Origin: a virus
Length of the DNA stretch: 28,946 nucleotides
Virus record (IMG/VR): IMGVR_UViG_3300031851_000128
Span: 1 to 28,946 of that record
Direction: 5' to 3' (one strand)
Shown here piece after piece: positions 6,001 through 28,371 of this stretch. Within the stretch, counting starts at the first letter, position 1. Each line of letters begins with the position of its first letter. A program made the position numbers and the translations under genes. The notes under the pieces were generated by a model. The model was not told the DNA's origin. It did no database searches and was given only the letters and a program-made list of their open reading frames with translations.

Positions 6001-9000
6001 GACCAAACGTTGTTTTACTATAGATAGCATAGATTCCCTCGTTAGTCAACCCACTAGCAGTACCTGTTATATCAGTTGGGATTTTATAAGTTTGTTCCCA
6101 TTCATTATTAATTGCACTAGGCGCATTTGCAGGACGAGGAATACCATTAACATTATCTTGTTGATAGAACCAATATTCTGCATCAGTTATATAATCAATT
6201 CCTGTAGGAACACTAAGATTGGTTGCATTTTGGAATACTAACATTTTACCAATATTATCAGCTGGTAGTCCTAAACTTACAAATTGTATTTGTCCAATTA
6301 TTCTATCTGCTTGATATGTTGGATTTGGATCGCCCGGTATTAATTTAAATTCAATTTCAGCATTTTGTCCGTAGTCGTCACCTTTTGACCACACACCTGT
6401 AACACTTTTTATAAAGATTGTTGCATTTAATCCGTCTCTTTGATAATATGTTACAACACCAGTTGCTCCAGTTGTTTTATCTTCTACACTTTGTCCAACT
6501 TTTGGTTCAAAAGGATTTCCAGATGCATCAAACTTTGTAAAGTCAAAATTAATGTATCCGTCCCATACATCATAAATCGTTTGCAATTTATTTGTAATTG
6601 TAGTTGTTAAATTTAATGCTGTAATATCTTTAATAATACCAGTTCCGTATTGAGGAAGTTGGTTAACATAAAAATTAATTGTATCACCTTGGTTAACTAT
6701 ATCAGTTACCGGCTTCGGAGCTCTAACTACATACAAGTCAGATAATATAGGACTGTTGTTGCCAAACGCTCCCGGTAATCCTTGACTACTTAATACTCGA
6801 ATATAACTATTAAACGTATTTTGACTATCTAATACTGCACTATCAAAATCTAAAATATTATAATAATATCTATTTGACGATTCACTAGGCCTAATTACAT
6901 CAGCAAATATAAGTCCTCTACCTTGATCTTTGTTAGTAGTTGCTGATGTTGGCGTATAAGACGGAGCAGTTATGTATAAAAATCCGCCTAGTTCAGTACT
7001 AGTATCTACGCTGTCAGTTGGTCCTTGCTTTTCGTATTGTCCAATAAAGTCACCATCATTTCTAAATAAACTATCTAAAGAATTAAATGAACCGTTTACA
7101 TCTTTTAAGTATATAACTAATTCAGCACCTTCATTGTACACATAGTCAACAGTACCTGATCCTGTTTCTGTTTGTACAATGTCGTTAAGTTCAACTAAGT
7201 TAGTTGATGAATTAACATACAAAATTACATCAATTTTCTTTTGTACAACATGTCCGGCATCTAAGTAGGCTTCTGTAATACTAGGAAAACTGCCAGCAAA
7301 TGGTGCTTGCTGTGCTAGTGCAGCTAAACTTTGATTAGAATATGTTATTGAATTCCATGCTAGTTTAACAGTGTCATTTAGTCCAATGCCTCTGTATATG
7401 TCTAAAGGAGCTCTAATAAGAATGTGATCAGTTACTACATTTTGGAATGCATATTGGTTAGTCACTGTATCAATTGCATAGTTACCTGTTAGTAACATTG
7501 GAATATCTACAGTGTTTAAATTTTCAACGTTAAGTTGATCAATTACATCTGTTACAGAATCAAAACTGTTGTATACTACATTTGCTACTTGAGGTTGTAT
7601 ATCTACCACCGAACGCCAAAGCTGTTGGTTAGAAGAAACTATTGATCCTTTTGGATACGGATCGGTTGCTACAAAACTACCTTCGTATTTTGTTTTTACA
7701 TTTGATGCATCAGGAGAACCTACTATAATAAAATCTCCATCTGGTGAAATATCAAGTCCTGCTCCAAAGCGTTCTAAATCGTTACCGTATTTTACTGGTT
7801 CTATTACTTGTGATTGAACAAAGTTTATACTATCAGATGCTCTAGTATAGATATAAACTTTCCCGTCATTTTCATCTGGAGCACCTACAACTAATGTAGT
7901 ATTACGACTGTCAACTGCCATTGAAGTAGCATATGATAAGTCTACAGCTGATGAATCTTTTTGCACTTTTAGTTGTTCAGTAAAATTATTTGTATTTTTG
8001 ATTACTGACCAATTTCCGTTAAAATTATCAATCCAATGTAGATCGCCTTCATCTAAGTTTTTCTGTAATACAGTATTAGCATCCGGAATTGATGCACTTC
8101 TTACTGAAAGGAATTTAGTAATATTTCCTTTGCACTCTGCAATTTCTTGAACAGCAGACGAAGTTACTAATGTAATTACATTCTTATCTACTTTTGATAC
8201 TATATAAAATTTATCTAAAGTAGTATTTCCAACATTTGACATTCCAATAACATCGTCTACAATAATATCTGTAACGTTTGTTGTTAATGTAATATTAAAT
8301 TCAGTGCTACCTGCTTCAATGCTTTCAACAATATAATCAGTGTCAACGTGTTTGTATACATTCCAATTAAGATTGTCATTGCCTACCCAAACATACTGGC
8401 CTCTTTTAATATCTGATATATTATAATCTGCAAGATTTCTATATGTTGTTGCAATACCTCTAACATCTGCTTGATTAACATATCCTGCATCTTTGATATA
8501 ACTTTTGTTTACGTTTAGTGCAGGGAATGGCTGATGGTTATAATTTTTTGTTTTCTGATATACTTCATATGGTAATATTCTATAAACTAAATCTGTTTCA
8601 TTGCCAGTAGTGCTATTAACTAATTCAATAGGCTGAGGGCTAAGTCTAAATTTACTTTCATCTAATAGTAATTCAAATTCTTCAAACCCTTCAGCAGCGC
8701 CATACTGACCATCTTTAATAGCCCACTCTTCATAAAATTCTAAACTATCTTTGTCAGCACTACTTAATACATCAAACAATTTAGTAAGTGCATTTTTAGT
8801 ACCTTTGTCTTGTAACATTCCTTGATAGAATTTATATTGACTTACATCATCATTAACAATGTTTTCTAAATACTGTCGTTTTTGGTAACCAATTAAATGC
8901 TGTGCTACTTTTTGTTGTTCTGTATCAAAGTTGTCACTATCTAAGTCATAAAAATCACTAAACTGATTTACTTTATAATCAAAGTTAGTATATAATCCAG

Positions 9001-12000
9001 CTTTAGGCTTATCATCTAAACGATGCCAATCTTGTGCATCAAAGTTTTCTTTACCTGAAAGTTTTTTAATTGCACTATAATAAAATTCTTTATACTTTAC
9101 AATATCTCCGACTGCATAATCTGTCCACTGTTGCCAGTTTGTTACAGTTGCATCGTCATAGACAAACCCAGGTATATTTAAACTACCGTCCCAATCCTGT
9201 GTTATATATCCAAGTACCTTTATTCGTTCTTGTCTATATCCTGGTTGAGTATCGTATATTATGTCTCCAAATACTGTTTTGTTATCTATCAGTAATACAT
9301 GTTCTTTTTGTATTAAGGGAAGTTTAATTGCAAAAATACCTTCAGCAGTATTTTTTGGAGTTAAAATAAATTCGTTAGGCGAACGCCCTACACTACTAAA
9401 TTCTTCTACTAAAGGAGTTCCGTCTGATTGTAATAACGTATAACCGTATTCGCCGCCAAATACATTAGCAACCATATTATATTGGCTTACAAATTTAATC
9501 TGTTTACTTGCCGGACTTAGTGTAATTACACTACCTTCACCCCATTTTTGTGTAGTCCAGAATAAAAACTCATTTACACTATGGCGCCAATCAGTTAATA
9601 TCTTTTCTTCACCTTCGTAATAATCAAATACAAAGCCTTGATCTTTTAAGTATTCTCCGTACCCTAATAAAAAGTCAACTACGTCTTGTATTTTTGCAAA
9701 TATTTTTCCATAGTCAGCAGTTAGAACAATATTTTTATTAAATTGCTTTCGAACAAATGCATCACGGCCACCTATAAGAGGTAAACTTGCAAGTTTAGCA
9801 AACTTAGTATTATCAAAAGAACCTGTACTTGTATGTGCTTCTTTTACTCTATAGTAAGATCCTTGATATTCAACGTTTGCTCCGGCTACATAATTTTTAT
9901 TAGAGTCCCATATTAAAAATGATTCACTTATTCCGCCTATATTAATACTTGGGTCTCGTTGTGTACTAACAGTTTGGTAATATGTAAACGATGATGCTTG
10001 GGTATCGTAACCTTTTACAACATAACCATCACTACGTCTTTCTATAATTACACCACTATAACTAACAATTTTAGTAGGTGAACTTGTGTTTAAAAATATT
10101 TTATAATTTTCAAAAGGAACAAATACATTACCTTGATTAGTTGGTGTTCTACTATCAAGAATTAACTTAAATTTTTCTTTATCAGTAAATCCTGAAAGTT
10201 TATACCCAAGCTGATTATTAATAGTAGTAATATTTTCTTTATACTCTTTATACAAATCTAATACACTTGTACTCATATAGTTAGATATGTAATTTACTAT
10301 ACCACTTGTATATACTTGTGTTGTATCTTCAGATGTATTTGGAAATACAATATCTTTAAGTTGAAAACGTTTTTGAGTTGGTTTATAAACAATTTCATTG
10401 GCAATATTTTTTACTTGATTTATTCTATCAAATCCTGTAGCAAACAACTGTGCTGGTTTATTAATTGCAAATGCTTTTACTATACTAAAAGGATATTGTG
10501 AACTTGAACGCCAGGCACTTTCTACAGGCGATCCGTCACCAAATATAAAACTTTGATCAATAAATGTTGGATCAAAGAATTTAACATATCCTGCATCTAA
10601 TGGTGATAAAAGATTACCATTACTGTCAGCAGGTATATGTCCTGTAAGACCAGGTCGCTTATAATTGTTTAAAACTTTAAATTTTTTGTTTGGTTCTCTT
10701 ACAACTCCGTCTTCAAGATCTTGCCATAGTAGCGTATTCTCTTTTGTGTAAGGAGCTGGTCCGTATTGTGTTTCCCACCAAGTAGGTTTAACACTAAAGC
10801 CTAGCATTTCCCAAGGATGAGTATGTGGACGATCAGTATCAAATGCTTGTTTATATACTTCTCTCCAAAAACCTGGAAGTAATACATCTTGTTTATTTTG
10901 ACTACCAGTATAATTAAATGTAAATCTATTAGTTCTTTCAAAGAAATTATGTAGTGTATAATCTTGATCAATAAACTTTGACCATGATATAAAATCGCCT
11001 AGTATAGTTTTATCAATGAAACTTTTAGTAACTCCGGTATTTCTAAAATCGCCGCCAACTAATGAATGTATATCAAACAATGTAGAATCATATGATACTT
11101 TAATGTTATTATAAATTCTTCTTTCTAATTCTAAAAGTATGTCATCTCTATAATCATTAAACGCAATTATTTTACTGCCATCGTGTCCTTGAATAACTTG
11201 TTGAGATTCTAAATATGTGTTGTCAGTATATTTTACAGGTTCGTATGCAGGATATAATCCTAATTTAGTTGGTGTTGGAGGAACATATGATCCATTAGTA
11301 GTTTCATATTCGTAAATATCAACAACATCATCTTGTTGTTTTGTAGCAGTAATTAACGCATACCCTTCTGAGTTAAACGTATAATCTTTGTTGTGTACTA
11401 ACTGTACACCGTTAATATAAATTTGTACTGCTTTTCTTGATGCACTTGTTAGCGAAAACATACTTGACAAAGGAAAATATAAATCATCAACATCATCTAT
11501 AATTCTAGTTGTCTTTTTTGTTGCACCAATTGGAACCATATCACTAAAGAAAAACGGTTGTGATTTAGTTTTATCTTTGTTTATATCTTGTAAGATTTTA
11601 TCCACATGATCTTTTATTGCACCTTGAAAACCTAAGTCTTCGGCTTTTTGTAAAAATAATCTTTTAAATACTGAATATTCTTTACTTGCATATTCTATAC
11701 TTTTTACAATATTACTATTGTTATCTGTTGAATGATATAATGGTAAATTTAGTGGTACACTGTGTTGTAAAAATCTACGACCTAAGGCAGTAACGTTTCC
11801 TACGTCTCTTAAATTGCTTACTCCTGGATAAACTCCGCTAAACTCATCGCTTTGTTCTACTATTGTAGAAACATGATCGTTTACTGCTCCAAGGGTAAAT
11901 TCTGTTAAATTTTCATTCTTTGGATTACGCTCTAATGCTACAGGAATTTCATAATATCCATTATCATTTTTTGTAGCTGCAGAACGAGTCTTAATTAATA

Positions 12001-14233: not shown

Positions 14234-17200
14234 TAGTAGCTACTGCCTCCGCTTGAACTTGAACTTGTGCCAGATGACACTGTATTAGGTAATCCTGCAC
14301 TTTGAATTCCTGCACGAACTGTTGTTGAATCAGTTACTATTGATCCTTCAGATCGCAATCTTGTAGCTGTTACGCTATCAATTATACTTACATCAGCAAC
14401 TGTTGCACCGCTTATAAATATTTCATCGCTTTCACATTTTACTTCATATAAACTTCCAAATGATTGTGTAATTTGACTTGGAACAACTACAAAAGTAACT
14501 AGATAAGGTGTAAGCTGTTGCATTACATAAGTGCTTAATTCACTAAAGTAAAATGCTTCTCCAAACTCCCAGTTCTCTAATGCAAAAAATTCATTTATTG
14601 CAGAAATAACTCGAGTCTTTACATCATTGTCATTAATAACTTGTTCTGGATTTTTTACAATTTTAAATGTAGCTTGCAAATCAGTGTCAGCCTTTTCTCC
14701 AAATAGTATTTTATACTTAACTGGATGATATATTATTTCGTCACTAATTGACTTAATAGTATTCAACTGTTGACCATAATTTAAATATAACTGATCTGAG
14801 CTAGGTGTTAAAGGTTTTACTGACGTTGTACCTTCTAAATACAAACGATATGAATTGTCATATGACTTTGTAAGCATATATGTGTCAATAATATTACTTA
14901 CACTAGGGTCAATACGTGTACTTTCGTCAGCAGCATGTACATAATGGAATTTTAGTTTATCTCTTCCAACCTTAGCCATATAGTCTTGCGATACAACTGT
15001 ATTACCTGTAGTTTTGTTTAACACTTTAAATACATTTTCTTTTATAAAATAAAATACTTGTCCGTCATCGTATGTTGATGTACTTCCTAATGTGCTAGTT
15101 TCTTCAAATACTTTTATGCTACCTGTTCCGTCAGTAAAGGTATATAGTCCTTCTGCTGTAGCTTTGCTAGTAGGAATATAATAGTATTCTTCTACTCCGT
15201 CTATTGTTGTAGTTTTTTTCAAAAATACATATTTTGTTTTAACATTAACAGTTTCATCTACAATTCTGTCAAACAAGTCTGGATCATCTACTACTCCGTC
15301 ATCGTCTTCATCAAAGAAACTTACTTGTATTTTACTACTATCAACATACCCTTCGGCATCTCTATATTCTTCAACAATTTCCCAGTCATAATCTACTGTA
15401 AATGGTACAACATCATCAGGTTTAGTGTTTATATTTAATACGCTAATTTTATCCTTAATAATTTTACCAGTTCTATTATTATAAATCTTATCTGAACTAT
15501 CAAAGTAAAATCTAATTTCTTCTGCACTTTCAAATACATATCTACTAGCACGATATGTAATAGTATATGTTTCGCCATTAGTTTCAAATAATAATAACCA
15601 ACTAGCATCAAGTTGTTGATTTGTAGCATCACCAGTTTTACCAATACTAAACGGACTATTTACATTTAAGTTATTTGTAGTAATTAATCTCCATTCACCT
15701 AAGTTAGTATCAAATCTTAAACCAAAAGTATTGTATGCAAATGATTGATCAATTATTTGTGCTTGCACTGACTGTTGTAATTCTGTTGCAAGTCTAGGTA
15801 TAATTTGTATAATTTTAGAACCTTGAGGAATATTATCGTTTAACAATACTGGTCCAGTGCCATCTGCATTATTTGTAGTTCCGTCACCCGCTACACTAAT
15901 AATTTTAGTCCACTTATACGATGAAGATCCTAAATGGTCTGCAGGACCATTCATTAATTGATTGTCGTTTTCCATCATATAGTGTTTACCAGCTGGTGGT
16001 TCAAACTTAATTAATGTTCCTGCTTTTAATAGTTTTAATGTACTTGCAGTAAATGTTCCTAGCTGAAGTTTTATATTGCTTGCGTTTGTGAAATATCCAG
16101 TATTTTGATTAGTGTCTGTAGTTTCGCTATTCCACACAACTCCGAGATCACCAACTAATGTTTTTGGAAAACTATTATAGTAATAATTTTTTACTTTTTT
16201 ATCTGCTAAAATAGGTTCAATAACATTTGCTATTGCTCCTTCAATATCAGTTTTTGTAATAAAACTAAATGTTTGCTTAGGCGATAAAAATTCCTTGGTT
16301 ATTATTCCGTCAACTCCAAATAAATTTGTTTTAGAATATTTTCCTGTTGCATCAACAAGATCTAAATATCTACTAATTCCACTTGATGTTCTGTTAACGC
16401 TTTTAACTTTGATAATTTCTTGACTTATACCAAGAGGCGCAATTTGATAGTCCTCTGCTGTAATCATTCGATTTTGAGTATAATACGTTGCAGGAGCGTT
16501 ACGTTTAATACTTGCATTTGATTCGCTTACACTAGCATTGTCAACTGTATACTTCAGTGAAAACACCATAGTAAGTTGTTCAGATTTACCTGTTCTACTA
16601 ATATAAGGAACTTTAATACTTACGCCCTTCATGTCACTTGGGTCAATTACAATTCTTCTGTTTTTACTTGTTCTATAATAAACTTTAAAGTTACCTTGTG
16701 GTAAACTACCAAAAGTACCGTCTGAGAATATCATGCTTATTCTATCATTTGCTCTAGTAAGAACACTATATATATTTCTAATGCCTTTACTCAAACTATT
16801 ATAAATTACGTTGTTGCCTTCAACTGCTGCAACTTGTGTCCATAATTCTTGTTCTAATCCAAAATTATCAGTTTTATAAAGCCATACATCTGAATTGTTT
16901 ACATTTGTTGCATCAATTGCAACTACTTGATTAGTGCTTGGAGTAGTAACATTGAAAGTACCGTTGTCCATTGTACCTTGTCTAAAATGACAGAAGTAAC
17001 CTGTGTTAGAACTAGCAGGACCTTTGCCGTCATCTTTATATATAAACGCAAAGTTATTTCCTGGAAACGGTGCTTCTTCTTTAACTTCACCATTGTCAAT
17101 GTCTGTACTTACAATTTCAAATCTACTAGTAGATCCGCTGATCGTTTTGTTAAAACCGTAAACTGGTAAATCTTCGTTTGCACTATTAAGTCTATATTGT

Positions 17201-17754
17201 TCTGTAGGTACACCAGCAATAGTAGCTTTTTGAACTGGACGGCCTACATTACTGTTTACTGGTAATGCTGAATTTAATATTTTTGTAAACTGCTCATTCC
17301 AGTCGGGGTTACTAGGATCGTTCCAAACAACTGTTTGATTAGATAAATTTAAATTATTTGAATCTCTTACATCTTCTGTTGTTTGAACACTTTCAATTTT
17401 CAGTAAGCCATTTGCTGCTTGATTTCTTTTAGGATTATATGATAGCAATCTAGCTAAACGTAGCACCGATTCTCTACGTTCTGCTAATTCTAAAAAGTTT
17501 TCACGAGCATTTAAGTCTGTACGGAAAGCAATATTTTGACCAAGGAAAGCAATAAGATCAATTAGTGCAAGGTACTCTGAACTTTCAATATAATCGTTAA
17601 AATCTTCTGGGTAATTTTGACGAATGTAGTTGATCATAGTTCGACGTAAATTGTCAAAATCGTATGATTTGAATTCTGCGTTTCTGTAGCTTTGGTAGAT
17701 TCTCTTCCAATCTTCAGCTACTAATAACCTATTTTGTCTATCGGTTGTTGACAT
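14233..17754 (-). CDS. gp6: Baseplate wedge protein gp6
   Basis: gp6 is the T4 wedge subunit that dimerises to form the continuous ring of the baseplate and drives the change during sheath contraction. The N-terminus (residues 1-125) has the family pattern: LLVAEDWKRIYQSYRNAEF, then EYLALIDLIAFLGQNIAFR, then NARENFLELAERRESVLRLA. The C-terminal part (about residues 955-1130) has the block with FFALENWEFGEAFYFSEL followed by a VVVPSQ...FGSLYEV stretch, typical of gp6/baseplate J-like proteins. At 1173 residues it is much longer than T4 gp6 (660), with extra mostly beta-type sequence in the middle. It ends in a Ser/Gly-rich tail. The start is supported by a purine-rich AAAGGAAAG ribosome site 7-16 bases upstream and a late promoter candidate before it. 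It shares one base with the giant downstream gene. Confidence 0.95.
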   Translation of the reverse strand: MSTTDRQNRLLVAEDWKRIYQSYRNAEFKSYDFDNLRRTMINYIRQNYPEDFNDYIESSEYLALIDLIAFLGQNIAFRTDLNARENFLELAERRESVLRLARLLSYNPKRNQAANGLLKIESVQTTEDVRDSNNLNLSNQTVVWNDPSNPDWNEQFTKILNSALPVNSNVGRPVQKATIAGVPTEQYRLNSANEDLPVYGFNKTISGSTSRFEIVSTDIDNGEVKEEAPFPGNNFAFIYKDDGKGPASSNTGYFCHFRQGTMDNGTFNVTTPSTNQVVAIDATNVNNSDVWLYKTDNFGLEQELWTQVAAVEGNNVIYNSLSKGIRNIYSVLTRANDRISMIFSDGTFGSLPQGNFKVYYRTSKNRRIVIDPSDMKGVSIKVPYISRTGKSEQLTMVFSLKYTVDNASVSESNASIKRNAPATYYTQNRMITAEDYQIAPLGISQEIIKVKSVNRTSSGISRYLDLVDATGKYSKTNLFGVDGIITKEFLSPKQTFSFITKTDIEGAIANVIEPILADKKVKNYYYNSFPKTLVGDLGVVWNSETTDTNQNTGYFTNASNIKLQLGTFTASTLKLLKAGTLIKFEPPAGKHYMMENDNQLMNGPADHLGSSSYKWTKIISVAGDGTTNNADGTGPVLLNDNIPQGSKIIQIIPRLATELQQSVQAQIIDQSFAYNTFGLRFDTNLGEWRLITTNNLNVNSPFSIGKTGDATNQQLDASWLLLFETNGETYTITYRASRYVFESAEEIRFYFDSSDKIYNNRTGKIIKDKISVLNINTKPDDVVPFTVDYDWEIVEEYRDAEGYVDSSKIQVSFFDEDDDGVVDDPDLFDRIVDETVNVKTKYVFLKKTTTIDGVEEYYYIPTSKATAEGLYTFTDGTGSIKVFEETSTLGSTSTYDDGQVFYFIKENVFKVLNKTTGNTVVSQDYMAKVGRDKLKFHYVHAADESTRIDPSVSNIIDTYMLTKSYDNSYRLYLEGTTSVKPLTPSSDQLYLNYGQQLNTIKSISDEIIYHPVKYKILFGEKADTDLQATFKIVKNPEQVINDNDVKTRVISAINEFFALENWEFGEAFYFSELSTYVMQQLTPYLVTFVVVPSQITQSFGSLYEVKCESDEIFISGATVADVSIIDSVTATRLRSEGSIVTDSTTVRAGIQSAGLPNTVSSGTSSSSSGGSSY

Positions 17755-17780
17755 AATATTTCTTTCCTTTAATTATACAG

Positions 17781-17788
17781 TATTTATT
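17781..17788 (-). promoter_or_regulatory. T4-like late promoter candidate for gene 6
   Basis: On the minus strand this reads AATAAATA, seven of eight matches to the T4 late -10 element TATAAATA. It lies in the 58-base gap between genes 25 and 6, about 27 bases upstream of the gp6 ATG. That leaves room for a short leader and the AAAGGAAAG ribosome site (17762-17770). Late promoters of this type need no -35 box and are read by host polymerase carrying gp55. Assignment is by sequence and position only. Confidence 0.6.
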
Positions 17789-17812
17789 AAATTTAGAAAA
17801 GTGCGTATATAA

Positions 17813-18262
17813 TTATCTAGCTAACAATCCGTTGTTTTGATCAAACGTTAGTCTCATATTTTCAGAAATATTATAAGGTAAAAATGACAGAGTTGAGTCA
17901 ATTTGTATACCACTTTCATACTGGTCAATTGATACTGATACAACGCTTACACGCGGATCGTAATTGATAATTGTAGTTACATTTTCAGCAATAACTTCTT
18001 TTAATCTTTCTGTTAACGGTTCATATAAAATATCCCAGATTATTGTTCCAAAATTAGGATTGCTAAGTAATTCACCCTGGCGTATATGAAAGTGGTTGAT
18101 TATATCTTGTTTAATTATTTGTATATCATAGAGCTGATAGCCTATACTATCCGGATTTACCGTAGAAAATCCACGATATGTTTTTTCGCCAACTCCGTAA
18201 TCGGGTCTTTTATTGGATTTTACAGTAATCTCTTTGTATAACTTTTTTTCTAATGTGCTCAT
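17813..18262 (-). CDS. gp25: Baseplate wedge protein gp25
   Basis: This is a 149-residue gp25 (T4 gp25 is 132), the small wedge component beside the hub that is thought to initiate sheath assembly and is homologous to TssE of type VI secretion. The family signature is clear: IRQGELLSNPNFGTIIWD (residues 60-77), then LYEPLTERLKEVIAENV, then a DPR triplet at 102-104 where many relatives have EPR. It ends with a beta-strand pair. The start is preceded by an AAGGT ribosome site. It follows the gp5 stop by 15 bases and precedes gene 6 by 58 bases, so it is in the baseplate operon. The N-terminal 30 residues are basic and slightly longer than in T4. Confidence 0.95.
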   Translation of the reverse strand: MSTLEKKLYKEITVKSNKRPDYGVGEKTYRGFSTVNPDSIGYQLYDIQIIKQDIINHFHIRQGELLSNPNFGTIIWDILYEPLTERLKEVIAENVTTIINYDPRVSVVSVSIDQYESGIQIDSTLSFLPYNISENMRLTFDQNNGLLAR

Positions 18263-18277
18263 AACGTATTTACCTTG

Positions 18278-19978
18278 TTAGAATGGTCCTTCTGAATCAG
18301 TAAGTGTTGCTGTTCCTTTTATTTCTCTACCTGCTCCACCAAATGGATCAAGTTCTGGATCACCACCTAATGAACTAACATCTGCGCCTGCTCCACCAAA
18401 AGGATCAAGTGCTGGATCACCTGTAGGGAAACCTGCACCTCCGTCCGTTAGTGTTGCATCTTCACTTGCAGCAGTATTTTCTGTGGTTGCTTGTCTTTCT
18501 TCTTGTGTTTTAGTTGCTTCTGATTTTTCCTCTGGTGGACATTTTGCAAAAGTATCGTCATTTGCTTTGTCTTTTGCTTTGTCGTCACTAGATGCATTTG
18601 CTGTTCCGGCAGCAATTGCTGCAGGGTCGTTGTTTGTTTTTTCAGGTGTGTGTTCTGCAGGATTTTTATTCTCTGCTCCTGTCCAGGCACCGGATTGTGG
18701 AACTCTAGTTACGACAGGTGCCGCACTAGCAGTTGCTGCTACTGCACTTCCACTATTCATATCTATTCTACCAGCTGTTTCTTTGTGTGCGGCAGAACTT
18801 ATGTTACTTGATCCTGTACAAGTTAACATTCCATCTGCTCCGCATTTAACAGTCCAATTAGCTGCTGTTTCCATTGCCATTGCATTTCCGGCTTTTATAT
18901 TAACATTTTGACCTGCTTCTAAATTAATATTTCTATCTGCTTTAAAATTAAGATCATTTTTAGTATGCATACTAATACTATCTTCTGCATAAATGTCAAT
19001 TTTACCGTTGGCTGTCATTTCAATCCAACTTTTGCCACTACCGTGTGCAATATAAATTAAGTCTTCACTATTATGTAAAAGTATTTGATGTCCGGTTCTA
19101 GTACGTATTCTAAATAATTCGTTAGCTGGTATGCTAGGATCGCCGCCTTTGTCTAATGTAGTATATTCACTAGGCACAGCCTTTTCGCCGCCAGCTGGTC
19201 CTTTTCTAAATAAACTAGGATCTCCGTCGTCCATTACAAAAGTTGTGCCAGTTAATCGCGAACTAGGAATATCTATTTCAGCGCCAGATTCTCCTGTTTT
19301 TGTTGTAGGATGTCCAGGGCGTCTATCTAACGGTCCTGGAGTACTCCATCCAAATACCATACTAGGAGTTTCTCGTCTAGCACTACTTGTAGTTGTACCT
19401 CTTATTTGGTCATTTGCTAATCCTGCATTATCTAAAACATTACAAGCATCCATATTACAAGGTTTTAAAAACTGTGTTGGATCTGCTCCTACGGCTTCTT
19501 CTGTTTTCTTGTTATATTCGCCTACTGGTCTTTGTTTTGTTTGATCTTCAGTATTATATTTTGTACTAGCATTTCCCGGTACCATAAAATTCATATAACG
19601 ATCTTGAATACAACCTATCCAAAAGCCTCTGCTTTTATTTCCTTCAGCAAAAATTACTAATACCCTAGTACCAACATCAGGTGGTATAGCCCACATTCCG
19701 TAACTTTTTTGTGTAGACGCAAAATTATCGTTTGGAGTAGATCCTGCAAATGGTGTAACTCCGTAAAATGGACTTAGGTAATCTACAATTACTCGTTCAG
19801 CGCCAACATTAGGAGTTGAGCCTTCTGTGTTAGATTTTAGAAGTTCAACTTCTAACCTACCCATATACTCGCCGTCTAAGTGATTTTTTACAATTGCTTC
19901 AAACGGACCTGGACCGTCAATTTTGCTTAATTTAGCACTAGCACCAGATGAGCGTGTTTCTTGATTTGATGAAACCAT
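18278..19978 (-). CDS. gp5: Baseplate central spike gp5, no lysozyme domain
   Basis: gp5 forms the trimeric membrane-puncturing spike under the tail tube. Residues about 25-135 form the OB-fold: FEAIVKNHLDGEYMGRLEVE, then SYGMWAIPPDVGTRVLVIF, then GFWIGCIQD and NFMVPG. Residues about 286-410 show short alternating repeats (HQILLHN, IDIYAEDSISMH, LNFKADRNINLEAGQNVNIK) expected of the triple-stranded beta-helix spike shared with VgrG. Between them lies a linker, but I see no T4-type lysozyme domain, although the total length (566) nearly equals T4 gp5 (575). From residue 410 the chain is Ala/Thr/Glu/Lys-rich and probably disordered. It carries two copies of a GDP-LDPFGGAG unit (520-531 and 539-550). 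One base separates it from the hub stop (TAATATG). Cleavage or a separate lysin is not visible here. Confidence 0.92.
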   Translation of the reverse strand: MVSSNQETRSSGASAKLSKIDGPGPFEAIVKNHLDGEYMGRLEVELLKSNTEGSTPNVGAERVIVDYLSPFYGVTPFAGSTPNDNFASTQKSYGMWAIPPDVGTRVLVIFAEGNKSRGFWIGCIQDRYMNFMVPGNASTKYNTEDQTKQRPVGEYNKKTEEAVGADPTQFLKPCNMDACNVLDNAGLANDQIRGTTTSSARRETPSMVFGWSTPGPLDRRPGHPTTKTGESGAEIDIPSSRLTGTTFVMDDGDPSLFRKGPAGGEKAVPSEYTTLDKGGDPSIPANELFRIRTRTGHQILLHNSEDLIYIAHGSGKSWIEMTANGKIDIYAEDSISMHTKNDLNFKADRNINLEAGQNVNIKAGNAMAMETAANWTVKCGADGMLTCTGSSNISSAAHKETAGRIDMNSGSAVAATASAAPVVTRVPQSGAWTGAENKNPAEHTPEKTNNDPAAIAAGTANASSDDKAKDKANDDTFAKCPPEEKSEATKTQEERQATTENTAASEDATLTDGGAGFPTGDPALDPFGGAGADVSSLGGDPELDPFGGAGREIKGTATLTDSEGPF

Positions 19979-19979
19979 A

Positions 19980-22688
19980 TTATGTTGATCCTTGTAATCC
20001 TGTTAAATCAGTAGAGTTGCCTTGGGCTATTCCTTTAGAAGCTGCATCAGTTATAGGTTTAGGAATACTTCCATTTCTTACAGCTGAAATTGCGTTTGCA
20101 AGTTTTTGATCTAATTCTCCAAGTGCTCCTGCAGCTATACTTCCTAATCCAGCTTGTCCACCAGTGAGTGCTTTTGCTAGTTTAATAGGGTCGCCGTTTA
20201 ATGTGTTAGCAAATGTTTCAGCTAATTGCGCTGTTGGGTTATCTAGGTTAAGTAATCCGCCTGTTGCCGATGCTTCGTTATTTGTATCACTAGGTTGTTT
20301 GGGTCTGCGTATAGTTTGCAGTGTTTGTGTAAATTGTCCGTTACTAAATGTATTTTTACAAAATAATACTTGATATAGTCCACTAAACATTCCAACCGGT
20401 GCTGTTCCGTTACCAGGGAATTCCATATAATTTTGTCCATAGTCTAATGGAGTTCTAAAATTTAGTTCTATATCAACTTCGCCGTTTTCATAATTCATTG
20501 TACCGTCGCCAGTAATATTTAATATTCCGGGTACTTGTAATGCATTATAATTTCCCATACCGCTATCACAAATGTAATACGGATCTCCCATAATTTCTAA
20601 ATCAACTGCAATTAAATCTACTGGGCTGTTTACTAACGCTTCATTAAAATCTCTTGCTATTTGACTCTCTGGGTGTAAAACAGGGCCGCCGCCGTCTACA
20701 CTGTTAGGTTTTACAACTTTATCCGTTGCTTTACTTACTGCTTCAACATTGCTATTAGGTTTATTTTTACCAGACACTGCTCTAGAATTGCCGCCTGTTA
20801 CTTCGTCAGTAACGGCTGTTTTAGAATCTCTTCCTAATTGACCTGCGTCACCTGCTATACTTGTAAAGAAAGCAGTGTTAAAATTAATATCAAAGTTTAA
20901 AATATCTTTATTTTTACCTGTATAGATATAATTGTATTCTTTTACTGCTTGATATTTTAATTCAGTAATTCCTGGACTTGCATCTGTACTACTTTGAAAC
21001 TTACTACGATGTACTAGATATGGAACAACACGATATACAAACACTCTAGCAGGCTTACCTGTAGCTCCTACTGTTTCAGCACTTTCGTCTGCATTGAAAA
21101 CTTGTGTTTGTATTCTAAACCAAGGAACCATTCCGTTCTCATCACCCTTTTTATCAGCTATGTCTCTACCATAACTACTTAAAATAATAGTTTCTTCAAT
21201 TATGTCTTGAATTTTTTTACCTGCAGAATATGTTGATGATCTAATATCACCTGTGCGTGTCACTTTACATCGATCAATTTTACCTTTAGTAGTTTCACTT
21301 TCAGCTTTTGTTGCTCCGGTCATTGGTTGTGTTCCTGCATCAAGATTACTTTTAGTAATTGTAGCTTTACCAATCTCATTCATAAATTCTAATTTTTCAG
21401 CATATTCTCTAATATTTTCTCCAAGACTACTACGCTTAACAGAAATACCTTTGTTATTTTCAAGTTCTTGTTCATAATTATCAGGAACTTTTCCGTTAGC
21501 ATCTCCTGTTTGAGAAACATAGTATTCTTTTATTTCTTCTTCAGTAAATTTACGTGTAGTTGCACTATCATCACCTTGTTCAGGTTGACCTTGCATAAAC
21601 ACTTCTGATTCTTCTGCTGATCCTTTTGTATTAGGAAATACTATTATGTACTGATCACCTTTGCCAACTTGTTTTGCATCTTCTTTAAGAAGTTGTCTAT
21701 CATTTAAAATTTTAGTAAAACTTTTTGCACCAGTTTGCAACATTTCTGCTACTGTTGCGCCGGTAAACTGTGTTTCTGTATGTGAAGTTTGTGTTTCATC
21801 TGTAAGTGCAATTTCTTGATAAGGTATTGCTTGTACAGCATATTGACTTCCGCCTTCAGTTACTTCAAATTGAATGTCAACAAATTTTAAAGGAAACATT
21901 CTTCGCAAATTACTAGCATGAATAAAGTTTCCAGCATCATCGTATCCTTTGAACTCAACTGTAAGTAAGTACGGTGCTTCAATATAATTTGACAAAGGTC
22001 CTCTAGCACGTTTAGCTGCAACTTGTAGAGATTGCAAAAATAATCCCATACTATATGGTTCAGTAACATTAAAACTTAAACTAGTTGCATTTGTCGATCT
22101 AGTGTTTTCATTACCTGCAACAATAGTTTCTATTTCAACATCATCTATGAAATATTCAGTTTTTCCGTTTGTATCATATGCAGTTGCACTACCCGGAGTT
22201 GGTCCGCCGCCGCTACGTAGTATAACTACGTTAGGGTCACGCCTTCTATAAGTAAAATCAGGAAAGTTAAGTTCGTCGTCACTTAAACACCCTAATGTAA
22301 AAATATAATTATAACTAGCAAATTGTTCTAATGGGTTTGGCTGTTTTCCGCTACCGCCAAAACTGTTTCCAAAACCGCCTCCAAATGCAGATCCTAAAAA
22401 TCCACCTATTCCTCCAGAAATTTGATCTACTAATTGTCCGCCAATACCATTTGCAATATTACCTACAATACTTTGTCCAATAGCAGGACCTGTAATACCA
22501 TTAAGACTACTTGCAATATCAACTGTTGCTCCTTTTAAGTCTTGTACTGAGCCTGCTACACTATCTGCTATGCCGTCAACTGATATATTAGCACTTGTAG
22601 ATATATTATTTTGTACATTAGTTGCTACATTATCTGCCAGCTCTAGACCTTGTGCTTTTAATCTTGATAGTTTATTTTGGATATCCAT
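19980..22688 (-). CDS. Large baseplate hub protein (gp27 position)
   Basis: This 902-residue structural protein is encoded directly before gp5, so it probably forms the hub ring to which the spike attaches, the role of gp27 in T4. I cannot show homology to gp27 by eye. Residues 1-115 are rich in Gly, Ala and Ile and end in a Gly/Phe segment (GGGFGNSFGG near 103-112). The folded part starts at about 120 (EQFASYNYIFTLGCLSDDEL). A segment near 200-250 (SLSFNVTEPYSMGLFLQSL, then LTVEFKGYDD) looks like a shell-type tail protein. The block with FRTPLDYG, MFSGLYQVLFCKN and GQFTQTLQTIRRPKQ (about 740-800) resembles the C-terminal end of many phage hub proteins. The tail is low complexity. Gaps to gp53 (2 bases) and gp5 (1 base) imply coupled translation. 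Marine T4-like relatives often label it only 'virion structural protein'. Confidence 0.75.
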   Translation of the reverse strand: MDIQNKLSRLKAQGLELADNVATNVQNNISTSANISVDGIADSVAGSVQDLKGATVDIASSLNGITGPAIGQSIVGNIANGIGGQLVDQISGGIGGFLGSAFGGGFGNSFGGSGKQPNPLEQFASYNYIFTLGCLSDDELNFPDFTYRRRDPNVVILRSGGGPTPGSATAYDTNGKTEYFIDDVEIETIVAGNENTRSTNATSLSFNVTEPYSMGLFLQSLQVAAKRARGPLSNYIEAPYLLTVEFKGYDDAGNFIHASNLRRMFPLKFVDIQFEVTEGGSQYAVQAIPYQEIALTDETQTSHTETQFTGATVAEMLQTGAKSFTKILNDRQLLKEDAKQVGKGDQYIIVFPNTKGSAEESEVFMQGQPEQGDDSATTRKFTEEEIKEYYVSQTGDANGKVPDNYEQELENNKGISVKRSSLGENIREYAEKLEFMNEIGKATITKSNLDAGTQPMTGATKAESETTKGKIDRCKVTRTGDIRSSTYSAGKKIQDIIEETIILSSYGRDIADKKGDENGMVPWFRIQTQVFNADESAETVGATGKPARVFVYRVVPYLVHRSKFQSSTDASPGITELKYQAVKEYNYIYTGKNKDILNFDINFNTAFFTSIAGDAGQLGRDSKTAVTDEVTGGNSRAVSGKNKPNSNVEAVSKATDKVVKPNSVDGGGPVLHPESQIARDFNEALVNSPVDLIAVDLEIMGDPYYICDSGMGNYNALQVPGILNITGDGTMNYENGEVDIELNFRTPLDYGQNYMEFPGNGTAPVGMFSGLYQVLFCKNTFSNGQFTQTLQTIRRPKQPSDTNNEASATGGLLNLDNPTAQLAETFANTLNGDPIKLAKALTGGQAGLGSIAAGALGELDQKLANAISAVRNGSIPKPITDAASKGIAQGNSTDLTGLQGST

Positions 22689-22690
22689 TT

Positions 22691-22993
22691 TTACAATCCT
22701 AATATTCTAGTTAGAGCATCGCCTTTTGGAATATATATTTCTGTTCCTGCAACTAAATCAAAAATAGGATCTTTTAAAATTTCAATATTACGTTGTGAAA
22801 ATACCCACCAAAGATTTTTATCTCCGTATAAATCAAAAGCTAATAAATCAGGTCTGTGAGTATACTGAACTTGTACTGTATATAAAACATCATCTGATTC
22901 AGCAGGGATTGGTCTAATTTTTAATGTGTCAAGATATTGGTTATTTCTTATAGTAGTATTAAACCAAGGTGATGTTCCTTCATAGTTTGCCAT
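22691..22993 (-). CDS. gp53: Baseplate wedge protein gp53
   Basis: This is a 100-residue gp53-like wedge protein, with a LysM-like fold in the better-known members, which helps join wedges around the hub. The diagnostic stretch is VQYTHRPDLLAFDLYGDKNL followed by WWVFSQRN, DPIFDLVAGTEIYIP and a short C-terminus. T4 gp53 is 196 residues, so this is the short form, apparently the core domain only. The ATG overlaps the stop of the upstream gp48-like gene by one base (TAATG), and the hub gene begins two bases after its stop. Position and sequence agree with a wedge-assembly role. Confidence 0.88.
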   Translation of the reverse strand: MANYEGTSPWFNTTIRNNQYLDTLKIRPIPAESDDVLYTVQVQYTHRPDLLAFDLYGDKNLWWVFSQRNIEILKDPIFDLVAGTEIYIPKGDALTRILGL

Positions 22994-23877
22994 TAGATAA
23001 ATCCTGGTCCGTTGCCTTTAGCATATGCACCAGATTTAAACTTATCTAAGCTAAATTGCTGTACTGCTCTTCTGCTGTATGTTGGCTGTAATTGTATAGA
23101 TATTAAACTACGTGTTGGAACCCAAGTGTTAATAGCACCCGGAACATGAATGTAATCAACGTCCATTGGTAGATCAACTGTAAACTGTGTTGCTACACAC
23201 GGAACATTTTTTAAAACAAAATCACCATAACCATTTAGTTGTACTACTGGAGGTGGCGAACCTTGTTGACTTGTATTTCCGTATGCCATTTTAGTAATCG
23301 ATCTTAAATAATGTACAGCAGCTACCCAATATACTCCTTCTGCTTCACTCTCAATTACAAAGTCTCCACTAACCTGAATTGTGTCAGGTTGACTGTTCTG
23401 ATAAGCTGGAAATGGATAATTACTATGTGTAGGTTTAACTTGTCCGTAGGATGCACTATGTGACAAAATTATCTGTGGAGTATATGGAAATATTAATCCG
23501 TTTGTGCGAAGTAACGCATTTTGTAAATTTGGTTCTAAATTTAATCCCGAAGGCAACGAAAGTTTTACTCTCCAATCATCGTCATCGGCACCTTTCCAAG
23601 ATACATCACCAAATCCTATACCGCCAGGCATACCAAATGATGGTAGACCGCCACCACGCAGGAGGCTCATAAAATTGTCTTTAGTAAACACATCTTCAGC
23701 TATGCCTTTAACAGCATTGCCGACGTTACCTAAGGCTTCCGAACCAAATCGGGCTGCACTTCCAAGTAGATTACTCACACTTTGTTGTGGAGATTTTGTA
23801 TTTCTACTTTGTGAAGAACTTGTTGGGTTTTGTGTTGCTAAACTTTTTCGAGCTACTCCGAAATCTTGGTATGGCAT
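22993..23877 (-). CDS. gp48: Baseplate tail-tube cap protein, gp48/gp54-like
   Basis: This 294-residue protein is the first gene of the minus-strand operon. The N-terminal 100 residues are polar and then Gly/Ala-rich (LLGSAARFGSEALGN; GLPSFGMPGGIGFGD). The remainder looks like a tail-tube-type beta domain: FPYTPQIILSHSASYG near 130, QVSGDFVIESEAEGVYWVAA near 168-187, then GYGDFVLKNVPCVATQF and VPTRSLISIQLQPTYSR. This pattern fits the gp48/gp54 pair that caps the hub and starts tube polymerisation. gp48 is the usual label in marine T4-like phages, but I cannot exclude gp54. T4 gp48 has 364 residues and gp54 has 320. The start is firm: an AGGAGA ribosome site lies eight bases upstream, behind a late promoter candidate. 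Confidence 0.75.
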   Translation of the reverse strand: MPYQDFGVARKSLATQNPTSSSQSRNTKSPQQSVSNLLGSAARFGSEALGNVGNAVKGIAEDVFTKDNFMSLLRGGGLPSFGMPGGIGFGDVSWKGADDDDWRVKLSLPSGLNLEPNLQNALLRTNGLIFPYTPQIILSHSASYGQVKPTHSNYPFPAYQNSQPDTIQVSGDFVIESEAEGVYWVAAVHYLRSITKMAYGNTSQQGSPPPVVQLNGYGDFVLKNVPCVATQFTVDLPMDVDYIHVPGAINTWVPTRSLISIQLQPTYSRRAVQQFSLDKFKSGAYAKGNGPGFI

Positions 23878-23899: not shown

Positions 23900-23907
23900 T
23901 ATTTAGT
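23900..23907 (-). promoter_or_regulatory. T4-like late promoter candidate for the baseplate operon
   Basis: On the minus strand this reads ACTAAATA, six of eight matches to TATAAATA, 23 bases before the ATG of the gp48-like gene. It is the best late-type element in the 79-base divergent gap. Its right end shares base 23907 with the -35 box of the opposite gp55 promoter, so both promoters cannot easily be occupied together. Confidence 0.5.
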
Positions 23908-23935
23908 TGACTTTATTAACAGAGTATATTATAAT
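23907..23935 (+). promoter_or_regulatory. Sigma-70 promoter for gp55
   Basis: TTGACT (23907-23912), a 17-base spacer and TATAAT (23930-23935) form a near-perfect host housekeeping promoter. Transcription would start near 23942, giving a leader of roughly 15 bases that contains the GGAGA ribosome site (23948-23952) before the gp55 ATG. This suggests early expression by unmodified host polymerase. Confidence 0.85.
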
Positions 23936-23956
23936 GTAACTACAAACGGAGAAATT

Positions 23957-24796
23957 ATGAGAAAAGTAAACTATTTAAACAATAAAGACATTTTGAAAGA
24001 GATTCACAAGTCTAAAGGTACGTTTTGTAGCTTTGTAGACGACGAAGATCATCAATTTGATATAATTCTGCCTAGTATAGATAAGATAAACATTCGTACT
24101 ATAGCAGAAGCAAAACGAAACAAAGCTAAAAGACTACAAGTTACTGGGTTTGACGAAGCGAAACTAGCTGGACGTAAAGTAAAGCAAGCAGAGTTTGAAG
24201 TTGACTATAAAAAAATTACAAAAGAAGAGTTAATCTTTAGAATAATGACATTTGATCATATTCCAGACGAACCTGGAAGAAAAAAGACGCCAAAAACTGT
24301 GGCAGACACTAAAGTAAAACTTAACTTTCCTCCATTCCAACATTTTAAGTTTGACGATAGCGGAGAATTACAATGTGTAGGTAAAAGCCATTGGTCTGGT
24401 GGTATGGAAAACGGTAGTTTTAATCTAAAAGGCGGTAAAGCAACTAATAAACTTGCTATGATGTGGATGAAGTTATGTGATAGATACGCAACACGAGGCA
24501 ATGTACGTGGATATACGTATAATGACGAGATGCGAGGACAAGCAATACTACAATTAGCACAGATTGGCTTGCAATTTGACGAATCTAAGTCTGCTAACCC
24601 GTTTGCATACTACACTGCTGCTGTAACTAACAGTTTTGTACGTGTTATTAACATCGAAAAGCGTAATCAAAACATTCGAGACGATATTCTTGAAATGAAC
24701 GATATGAATCCTTCGTTTACTAGACAAAATGCAGGTGAATGGGACGCTCAGCAACGTAGAGAAAAAGAACTCCAAGCAAAACAGAATAACGCTTGA
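23957..24796 (+). CDS. gp55: Late transcription sigma factor gp55, N-terminally extended
   Basis: gp55 is the small phage sigma factor that directs host RNA polymerase to late promoters. The conserved core lies in about residues 140-265. It includes HWSGGMENGSFN, LAMMWMKLCDRYATRGNVRG, YTYNDEMRGQAILQLAQIGL, FDESKSANPFAYYTAAVTNS and VINIEKRNQNIRDDILEMN. These are sigma region-2-like helices, and the aromatic-rich segment is the expected place for promoter melting. The protein has 279 residues against 185 in T4. The extra length is N-terminal: a first unit (GTFCSFVDDEDHQFDIILPS, then IRTIAEAKRNKAKRLQ) and a basic linker (PGRKKTPK). The C-terminus is charged and lacks an obvious hydrophobic clamp-binding tail. 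It is divergent from the baseplate operon it should activate. The start has GGAGA just upstream. Confidence 0.9.
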   Translation: MRKVNYLNNKDILKEIHKSKGTFCSFVDDEDHQFDIILPSIDKINIRTIAEAKRNKAKRLQVTGFDEAKLAGRKVKQAEFEVDYKKITKEELIFRIMTFDHIPDEPGRKKTPKTVADTKVKLNFPPFQHFKFDDSGELQCVGKSHWSGGMENGSFNLKGGKATNKLAMMWMKLCDRYATRGNVRGYTYNDEMRGQAILQLAQIGLQFDESKSANPFAYYTAAVTNSFVRVINIEKRNQNIRDDILEMNDMNPSFTRQNAGEWDAQQRREKELQAKQNNA

Positions 24797-24821
24797 CTTT
24801 TAGTTTAATTGATCGTATAAT
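24793..24821 (+). promoter_or_regulatory. Sigma-70 promoter for gp47-gp46-hemC
   Basis: TTGACT (24793-24798), a 17-base spacer and TATAAT (24816-24821) have the same hexamers and spacing as the gp55 promoter. The -35 box contains the gp55 stop codon TGA (24794-24796). It would feed the recombination operon independently of read-through from gp55. Confidence 0.85.
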
Positions 24822-25862: not shown

Positions 25863-27631
25863 TACAAATTAAAGATTTAACCGTAAAAAACTTTATGAGT
25901 GTGGGCAATCAGACTCAGGCTGTTGACTTTAACAGAGAAAATCTTACACTTGTACTAGGTGAAAACTTAGATCAAGGCGGAGATGACAGTGGTTCACGTA
26001 ATGGTACAGGTAAAACTACTATCATTAATGCACTTAGCTACGCATTATACGGAAAAGCCCTTACAAACATTAGAGCAAACAACTTAATTAATAAAACTAA
26101 CAGCAAAGGCATGTTGGTTACACTTCACTTTGAAAAGAATGGTGTTGATTATAGGATTGAGCGTGGGCGTTCTCCTAATGTACTCAAGTTCTTTATTAAC
26201 AATCAAGAACAAGAACTTGTAGACGAATCGCAGGGCGACAGTCGACAGACTCAAAAAGATATTGATGGTTTACTTGATATGAGTCATGATATGTTTAAAC
26301 ATATTGTTGCACTAAACACCTACACAGAACCATTCCTAAGCATGCGGCAAAACGATCAACGTGCTATCATTGAACAGTTGTTAGGTATTACTATCCTAAG
26401 TGAGAAAGCTGATGCTTTAAAAGAGCAAACACGCATTACTAAGGAAGCCATAACTACTGAAACATTAAAAATTGAAGCAATACAAACAGCAAACAGTAAA
26501 ATTGAAAGTACTATTAGTAGTTTACAAGGTACGCAACGAGCTTGGCTTGCTAAAAAACAACAAGACGTAAACAAATTAGCATCTGCTATCGACGAATTAG
26601 AGCATTTAGACATTGATGTAGAACTAGAGTCGCATGAAAAATTGCAAAATTGGAATGAACATAACAGTGCTATTTTGGCTCTTAAAAAAGAACTAAGCAC
26701 ATTAGAGCCAGCACTACAACGTGCAGACAAGAGTGTTGAAAAGGTCAATAAAGATGTCGCAAATTTAGAAGATGCTACATGTTATACGTGTGGACAAGAG
26801 CTACATGCAGACAAAAAAGCAGAAATTGCAGAACGCAAGTCAAAAGAACTTGAAGATGCTATGTCATATCAAACAGAAGTTAGTGATAAACTTATTGATG
26901 TTACAAAGGCACTTGCAGAGATTGGTGACATCAACGGTAAGCCTAATGTATTTTATGAAACTGCTAAAGAAGCGTATGAGCATAGACAGAATGTAGACAG
27001 TTTAAAACAATCTCTTACATCAAAACAAGAAGAAGCTGATCCTTATCAGGCACAAATTGATGAATTGAATCACACTGCTATGCAGGAAATTGACTGGTCT
27101 CCAGTGAATGACCTTACAAGTTATAAAGAACATCAAGACTTCTTATTAAAGTTACTAACTAACAAAGATAGCTTTATTCGCAAGAAGATTATTGATCAAA
27201 ACTTAGCGTATCTTAACAATAGGCTTACATACTATCTTGATAAACTAGGATTACCACATAGTGTTGTATTCCAAAACGATTTGAATGTTGAAATTACACA
27301 ACTAGGACAAGACTTAGACTTTGATAACCTGTCAAGAGGCGAGCGTAACAGACTTATACTTGGTATGAGCTTTGCATTCCGTGATGTTTGGGAAAGTCTG
27401 TATCAAAAAATTAACTTATTGTTTATCGATGAACTTATTGATAGTGGTATGGACACAGCAGGAGTTGAAGGATCGCTTGCTGTTCTTAAAAAGATGGGTA
27501 GAGACGGAGACAAGAACGTTTTCCTTATCTCACACAAAGATGAACTTATAGGAAGGGTCAATTATGTAATGAAGGTTGTGAAAGAAAACGGATTTACATC
27601 ATATGAGAATGATATTGACATTGTAGAATGA
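25859..27631 (+). CDS. gp46: Recombination ATPase subunit gp46 (SbcC/Rad50-like)
   Basis: gp46 is the ABC-type ATPase that clamps DNA and controls the gp47 nuclease. Walker A is GSRNGTGKTT at residues 45-54. The central region (about 180-430) is charged and heptad-like, as expected for the antiparallel coiled coil. A zinc hook CYTC (Cys308 and Cys311) lies at its apex. The ABC signature is LSRGE at 491-495 (Arg in place of the common Gly), and Walker B is LLFIDE at 520-525, followed by the D-loop DSGMD. A late His (ISHKDE) could be the switch histidine. The 590 residues compare with 560 in T4. It has ATGA overlaps with both gp47 and hemC and no clear ribosome site of its own, so it is probably translated by re-initiation. 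Confidence 0.97.
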   Translation: MIQIKDLTVKNFMSVGNQTQAVDFNRENLTLVLGENLDQGGDDSGSRNGTGKTTIINALSYALYGKALTNIRANNLINKTNSKGMLVTLHFEKNGVDYRIERGRSPNVLKFFINNQEQELVDESQGDSRQTQKDIDGLLDMSHDMFKHIVALNTYTEPFLSMRQNDQRAIIEQLLGITILSEKADALKEQTRITKEAITTETLKIEAIQTANSKIESTISSLQGTQRAWLAKKQQDVNKLASAIDELEHLDIDVELESHEKLQNWNEHNSAILALKKELSTLEPALQRADKSVEKVNKDVANLEDATCYTCGQELHADKKAEIAERKSKELEDAMSYQTEVSDKLIDVTKALAEIGDINGKPNVFYETAKEAYEHRQNVDSLKQSLTSKQEEADPYQAQIDELNHTAMQEIDWSPVNDLTSYKEHQDFLLKLLTNKDSFIRKKIIDQNLAYLNNRLTYYLDKLGLPHSVVFQNDLNVEITQLGQDLDFDNLSRGERNRLILGMSFAFRDVWESLYQKINLLFIDELIDSGMDTAGVEGSLAVLKKMGRDGDKNVFLISHKDELIGRVNYVMKVVKENGFTSYENDIDIVE

Positions 27632-28371
27632 AACTAAAAGTTGGAACAAGAGGAAGTAAACTAGCACTTGCATACGCTGAACGTGTATGCAGTGAAATTT
27701 CTCACGAAACAGAAATAGTTATAATAAAAACAGATGGCGATCTAAACAACAATGCTCCAATACACGAAATTGGTGGCAAAGGTGTGTTCTGTACTGCTAT
27801 TGAAAACGAATTATTAGAAGAAAACATTGATATTGCTGTGCATAGTCTTAAAGACATGCCTGGAGAAGAACATCCGGATTTAATTATTGCTTCAATGTTA
27901 AAACGTAACAGTCCTCATGATGTAATTGTTGGTAGCGTAGGATACGGATGTACTATTGGCACTAGTAGTCCTAGACGAACTGCTCAATTAAAAGAATTAT
28001 ACGACAACTTAGACATAAAAATTAAACCTATTAGAGGCAACATTGATACTAGGTTAGAAAAACTTGACAATAAAGAATATGATGCTATAGTATTAGCTGA
28101 AGCTGGCCTTAAAGCATTGGACATTAGACGTACTTGGATCAAGATTCCAACTATTCCGGCAGTTGGTCAAGGAATAATTGCAATACAAACTAGAAAGAAT
28201 GATGTTGATACTATTGATATAGTTAAAAAAGTAAATGATAAGAAAACCTTTGCCCAAGCGCAAGTTGAACGTGCATTTTTAAAAGGCATGGGTGGTAATT
28301 GTCATACAAAACTTGCAGCTCATGCTACTGGAAGTAATCCTATTACGCTAAAGGCAATGTATTATGATTGA
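27628..28371 (+). CDS. hemC: Porphobilinogen deaminase (hydroxymethylbilane synthase), short form
   Basis: HemC joins four porphobilinogen molecules into hydroxymethylbilane, the linear precursor of haem and other tetrapyrroles, in the cytoplasm. The family motifs are intact: GTRGSKLALA (6-15), EIGGKGVFCTAIE (47-59), HSLKDMP with the catalytic Asp76 (72-78), GTSSPRRTAQL with Arg116/117, IRGNIDTRLEKL with Arg136 and Arg142, and IPAVGQG. The Cys that carries the dipyrromethane cofactor is present (GGNCH, Cys225). The protein is 247 residues, whereas bacterial enzymes are about 310. It stops some 22 residues after the cofactor Cys, so most of domain 3 is missing. It overlaps gp46 by ATGA and the next gene by eight bases. 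Codon and base use look like its phage neighbours. It is a probable auxiliary metabolic gene; activity is unproven. Confidence 0.93.
   Translation: MKLKVGTRGSKLALAYAERVCSEISHETEIVIIKTDGDLNNNAPIHEIGGKGVFCTAIENELLEENIDIAVHSLKDMPGEEHPDLIIASMLKRNSPHDVIVGSVGYGCTIGTSSPRRTAQLKELYDNLDIKIKPIRGNIDTRLEKLDNKEYDAIVLAEAGLKALDIRRTWIKIPTIPAVGQGIIAIQTRKNDVDTIDIVKKVNDKKTFAQAQVERAFLKGMGGNCHTKLAAHATGSNPITLKAMYYD

Follow-up and report, generated by a model that had tools for sequence, protein, structure and literature searches.

Interleaved early and late promoters at the late sigma factor gene of uncultured marine and freshwater phages

Inspection of a 28.9-kb phage record (28,946 nt, the whole stretch of DNA analysed, from here on "the window") and comparison with related environmental contigs enabled the identification, in a large set of phages related to T4, of a compact promoter module in front of gene 55, which encodes a homologue of the T4 late sigma factor. 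The early promoter of gp55 and the late promoter of a divergent baseplate operon lie on opposite strands and are interleaved. At the level of sequence, the comparisons show the two promoters, their interleaving, its conservation, and the assignment of a palindromic upstream element (UE) to the late promoter. The best supported explanation, to which we give somewhat better than even credence, is that this is an interlocked module of mutually exclusive promoters in which late initiation would shut gp55, a negative feedback; occupancy and feedback are what we infer from the arrangement.

Layout of the locus

Gene 55 (23957-24796, plus strand; 279 aa; PHROG 12791, E 2.1e-76; phrog_234, E 4e-22) is divergent from the baseplate operon. 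The first gene of the operon encodes a virion structural protein of 294 aa (22993-23877, minus strand; phrog_12050, E 1.3e-39), and the remainder (14233-22993, minus strand) carries PHROG matches to gp6-like, gp25-like, hub/lysozyme, structural and wedge subunit proteins. Downstream of gp6, an open reading frame of about 4746 codons (2-14239, minus strand) runs off the window end. Directly after genes 47 and 46 is a gene for HemC (porphobilinogen deaminase; 27628-28371, plus strand; Pfam Porphobil_deam, E 2e-64), a heme-pathway gene carried by the phage. DNA BLAST of the window against cultured phages gave no match.

The sequence-only reading had proposed that promoters of early and late type stand back to back between gp55 and the baseplate operon, and this is borne out. 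The early promoter has the boxes TTGACT (23907-23912, plus strand) and TATAAT (23930-23935, plus strand) separated by 17 bp, with 11 of 12 consensus matches, and so follows the sigma70 pattern TTGACA-17-TATAAT at a gene start; in the E. coli sigma70 register its start would be A23942. TTGAC-17-TATAAT is kept in nearly all relatives fetched by their gp55 protein, and a leader and ribosome binding site precede gp55; the sequence of the 17-bp spacer shows conservation too. The flanking distances vary, from 21 to 44 bp between the -10 box and the gp55 ATG and from 22 to 38 bp between the -35 box and the divergent ATG. Gene 47 has an early promoter of its own, TTGACT-17-TATAAT (24793-24821, plus strand, at the end of gp55), which carries neither late box nor UE and has at least 10 of 12 consensus positions in 54 of 56 non-redundant relatives. 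With this promoter in place, genes 47 and 46 could stay on when the gp55 promoter shuts, a point that is supporting but not decisive.

The late promoter is recognised by its T4-type box CTAAATA (23900-23906, minus strand; TATTTAG on the plus strand), which lies 22 bp before the baseplate ATG, with a ribosome binding site present. Box and position are read directly; the start, 23894, is placed by the T4 register, giving the leader ATTAGGAGACTTTATAT. The group late motif is ATAAATA. In a set of nine long relatives (G001 and G005 being near-identical) plus the window, it precedes 65 genes in the sense orientation and 13 in the antisense orientation, usually at a distance of 17-28 bp to the ATG. 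CTAAATA is a genuine but less frequent form of this box, occurring before gp6 too. T4 gp55 places an A in a pocket at -12 (PMC7892883), and since this base is C here, the baseplate late promoter may be weak. The idea that C at -12 was selected to weaken the box was dropped, as freshwater phages have ATAAATA at the same offset.

The upstream element

Nine bp upstream of the late box (spacer 23907-23915, minus strand) lies UE, which reads TAATATACTCTGTTAA on the minus strand (23916-23931). The complement of the 9-bp spacer, TTGACTTTA, holds the early -35 box, and UE itself sits inside the early spacer with a 2-bp overlap into the early -10 box. UE is a palindromic element, approximately TTAAGTACGCACTTAA, forming a 16-bp dyad. 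The same palindrome is found 9 bp before the late box of the gp6 gene, which has no early promoter, in nearly all of 80 relatives; in the window this control promoter comprises ATAAATA (17781-17787), a 9-bp spacer and UE (17797-17812), all on the minus strand.

A scan with the consensus string gave total palindrome counts not above chance, only near-perfect matches clustering at gene starts, and a position matrix was therefore used instead, built from 63 distinct gp6 promoter sites only. With this matrix the UE of the gp55 gap in the window scores 8.1, a score of 8 being reached by 0.009% of background 16-mers. Among 75 gp55-gap sites, 83% score at least 6 in the 9-bp register, compared with 0.02% of background 16-mers. 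All 77 sites of the freshwater B set (L388-like) score between 10.8 and 20.7 when the best of spacings 8-10 is taken. As a control, the early promoters of gp47 in these phages were scored in every register and do not exceed 2.2. Three loci, L008, L029 and L037, have an early promoter that stands apart and has no UE in its spacer, while UE, the 9-bp spacer and ATAAATA stay with the late gene. On the evidence of the gp6 sites, the low gp47 scores and the arrangement in these three loci, UE is assigned to the late promoter. The gp6 promoters and the same three loci exclude the conserved spacer as a feature of the early promoter.

Further good matches to UE are found at a few other structural gene starts, some of them overlapping the late box or the leader, which suggests operator-like use. 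Such copies occur in contigs L107-L123 and L104-L106, for example at 9658 and 18331 of G002, and also at 13630 and 50606 of G008 and at 87281 of G001. Several loci of the PA5oct-like outgroup carry a different palindrome, AAA..TTT, 8-9 bp upstream of the late box; these phages may have UE-like elements of other specificity.

Geometry and conservation of the overlap

When the late box is read as a 7-mer, TATTTAG (23900-23906) abuts TTGACT (23907-23912); when it is read as the T4 8-mer (aCTAAATA, -13 to -6), base 23907 is common to the late box and the -35 box, so that the shared base proposed from the sequence holds in the latter reading. The site of overlap thus stands. Its limitation to a single base does not, since UE at 23916-23931 makes the whole promoters overlap: the late promoter spans 23931-23894 from UE to start, and the early promoter 23907-23942 from -35 box to start. 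A typical polymerase footprint on either promoter would cover the core of the other, making joint occupancy very unlikely. Judged from this geometry, steric exclusion, in which the two promoters are not occupied together on one template, is very likely. In T4 the footprint of the activated late complex reaches 13 bp further upstream than that of the basal complex, via the sliding clamp (PMC2988020).

The window of 28.9 kb has 10 copies of CTAAATA, both strands counted, and the probability of exact abutment by chance in one genome is therefore of order 1e-4. Conservation of the overlap, set beforehand as the test of the proposal, was assessed in loci fetched by gp55 protein only. In the marine set (78 loci plus L078, read separately; 79 readable gaps) the late box is 0 or 1 bp from TTGAC in 76 phages: the offset is 0 in 68 and -1 in 8, the latter having the form TATTTATTGAC and a gap of 8 bp between UE and the late box, and the late box and TTGAC are 54-56 bp apart in the remaining 3. 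In freshwater B the offset is 0 in 77 of 78 assessable loci, and the exception, L728 (TATTTATTTGCTTTTATTAT), is not a case of separation: its late box is intact and the adjoining -35 box is degenerate. Both arrangements occur in a second freshwater sample (L378-like), where 18 loci are fused and the others are 7-42 bp apart or unassignable.

Three IMG/VR scans with the exact pattern find the module in front of gp55 at all of at least 329 assessable sites among the matches listed (112/112, 111/111 and 106/106 in the single scans). These scans show specificity and not frequency, as the pattern presupposes the overlap. Freshwater members of the exact pattern with TATTTATTTGAC, that is with perfect ATAAATA, have gp55 proteins 58-72% identical to that of the window. 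Each of 15 long marine contigs contains the string TATTTAGTTGAC a single time, which rules out the module as a general early promoter used genome-wide. In the long contigs the gp55 gap is the sole divergent gap with a sigma70 promoter of at least 11/12 next to a late box.

On the gp55 tree, from which the freshwater sequences were left out, support for the marine clade is strong. Fused and separate arrangements require at least two changes on this tree, where the one-base-shared form is found at three or more positions. Sequences within a clade, and hence the counts above, are not independent, and the relatives inside this one are environmental contigs. In the PA5oct-like outgroup the promoters are separated, very often by exactly 35 bp. 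Given this outgroup and the three marine phages with separated promoters, the overlap is not essential. Among L324-L351 and similar PA5oct-like sequences, the late box is exactly 35 bp from TTGAC in 22 loci.

The gp55 protein and late-transcription partners

The sigma2-type domain of gp55 matches T4 gp55, both by profile (solved structure 7d7c, E 5.4e-8, residues 160-237) and by predicted fold (AlphaFold2 model of pLDDT 85; best structural match 7d7c_F, Z 9.5). The closest cultured relatives of the protein are from Pseudomonas jumbo phages of the PA5oct group (48% identity), followed by a range of other jumbo phages that includes RaK2 and PBECO4. It differs from T4 gp55 at both ends. About 158 residues precede the sigma2-like domain, and residues 1-158 (23957-24430, plus strand), beyond the T4-matching part, have no significant Pfam match. 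The C-terminus is a hydrophilic tail with no obvious clamp-binding motif, where T4 has such a motif, and clamp tethering through this tail thus appears doubtful. A sigma4-like domain of gp55 might in principle recognise UE, but the model gives a sigma2-type match to T4 gp55, and no pointer to an additional DNA-binding domain was seen (residues 1-158 were not modelled alone). A Pfam search for gp33 (PF16805) gave no match, as did its controls.

Proposed mechanism and alternative explanations

In the mechanism that we propose, host sigma70 polymerase would transcribe gp55 from TTGACT-17-TATAAT, and gp55, once made, would send polymerase to the opposite-strand late promoter composed of UE, the 9-bp spacer and CTAAATA. 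Since the early -35 box falls within the 9 bp between UE and the late box, and UE in turn fills the early spacer and overlaps the early -10 box, polymerase on one promoter, or a protein bound to UE, would cover the core of the other. Late initiation would then turn off gp55 on that template, and genes 47 and 46 would remain on through their own promoter. This negative feedback had been put forward in the sequence-only reading, which the comparisons support in part. The gp55 protein could be stable, which would blunt the feedback; exclusion would moreover work both ways, and other mechanisms could silence sigma70 promoters of the host.

A dual regulator of the phi29 kind is compatible with this explanation and is a tentative possibility. 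A phage or host dimer on UE would activate the late promoter from about -37 to -22 and repress gp55 between its -35 and -10 boxes. Consistent with this are the 16-bp dyad at a fixed distance from the late box of two baseplate operons, the UE copies over late boxes or leaders of a few structural genes, and the contrast with T4 late promoters, which have no conserved upstream sequence at the position of UE (PMC2988020, PMC7892883). In phi29, p4 plays such a dual role at A2b/A3 (PMC3100819). Against it, the UE-binding protein is only hypothetical, and the late polymerase could itself touch UE. We consider it doubtful, and a little more so, that a dedicated dimeric regulator of late transcription recognises UE, turning on the baseplate operons and, from its position in the early spacer, turning off the late sigma gene; the commitment of the phage from early to late expression would then lie in one module of 36 bp.

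An evolutionary lock-in, in which a single interleaving event in a crowded gap was followed by retention of the overlap without regulatory benefit, seems to us unlikely. The early promoter could then not drift off, as the distance of 9 bp between UE and the late box has to be maintained. This accords with the few origins on the gp55 tree, the fixed UE spacing in both promoter classes, the compact genomes and the viability of separated arrangements. However, separation is possible yet rare (3/79 marine and at most 1/78 freshwater B loci), the -1 variant arose at least three times with the overlap still kept, and genes 47 and 46 keep a separate promoter.

Exclusion in the reverse direction, such that early polymerase at the strong gp55 promoter silences the baseplate operon until sigma70 initiation stops, is improbable to a similar degree. 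It has the identical geometry in its favour, as well as the pairing of a near-consensus early promoter (11-12 of 12) with the variant late box CTAAATA, but late transcription needs gp55 to be made first in any case, and many genome copies are present by then.

Lastly, that TATTTAG and the spacer merely extend a standard early promoter, no late promoter being present, is extremely improbable despite their strong conservation along with the -35 and -10 boxes, given that the gp47 early promoter has neither TATTTAG nor the spacer element (which rules out TATTTAG as a generic early-promoter part), and that UE, 9 bp and ATAAATA precede gp6 with no early promoter and shifted together with the late gene in L008, L029 and L037.

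Relation to known systems and significance

The locus resembles T4 late transcription in its gp55 homologue, in its TATAAATA-like box, located roughly one turn of the helix before the inferred start, and in the ATAAATA-type boxes before structural genes. The variant aCTAAATA agrees with the a/gC at -13/-12 reported for Aeh1 late promoters (PMC2988020). The baseplate late promoters differ in having a palindrome at fixed spacing upstream, where the T4 late box TATAAATA has none. Because UE lies 9 bp upstream in both the gp6 and the gp55-gap promoters, we class the baseplate late promoter as a variant of the T4 type and not a standard T4 late promoter. T4 DsbA reportedly binds in the vicinity of late promoters, where its role is unclear (PMC2988020).

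Among jumbo phages, ATAAATA is predicted as the late motif before structural genes of CBB and GAP32, where gp55 is downstream of a predicted early-type promoter; the sections of that paper considered here describe neither an upstream element nor an early/late overlap (PMC5259590). In RaK2, PBECO4 and PA5oct, too, gp55 and the baseplate operon diverge, the gene order being the same. All three are without UE, and the late box is 2 bp from a TTGAAT -35 box in RaK2, 3 bp from TGGGAC in PBECO4 (read by eye) and 22 bp away from the -35 box in PA5oct.

The nearest precedent is phi29 A2b/A3, by a likeness in working logic and not by class membership. There p4 binds a site over the -35 box of the early promoter A2b and activates the late promoter A3 (PMC3100819). 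In both cases early and late promoters are on opposite strands, and an inverted-repeat regulator site overlaps the early promoter and serves the late one; here the shared site, as read from the DNA, is UE. The systems differ in that host polymerase uses both phi29 promoters, with p4 (and p6) as regulator, whereas here the late promoter is expected to depend on gp55, the product of the very gene that the early promoter serves, and the UE-binding protein is hypothetical. In the open-access literature (PMC) we found no report of the early/late overlap or of UE, and no description of how T4-like phages limit their late sigma factor.

The module is compact and strictly conserved across many uncultured phages of marine and fresh waters, and it points to exclusion between promoters at the sigma gene itself. 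T4-type late promoters have been described as lacking an upstream element; UE provides one, and its presence predicts that something reads it. The interlock probably allows late transcription to silence the gene that switches it on.
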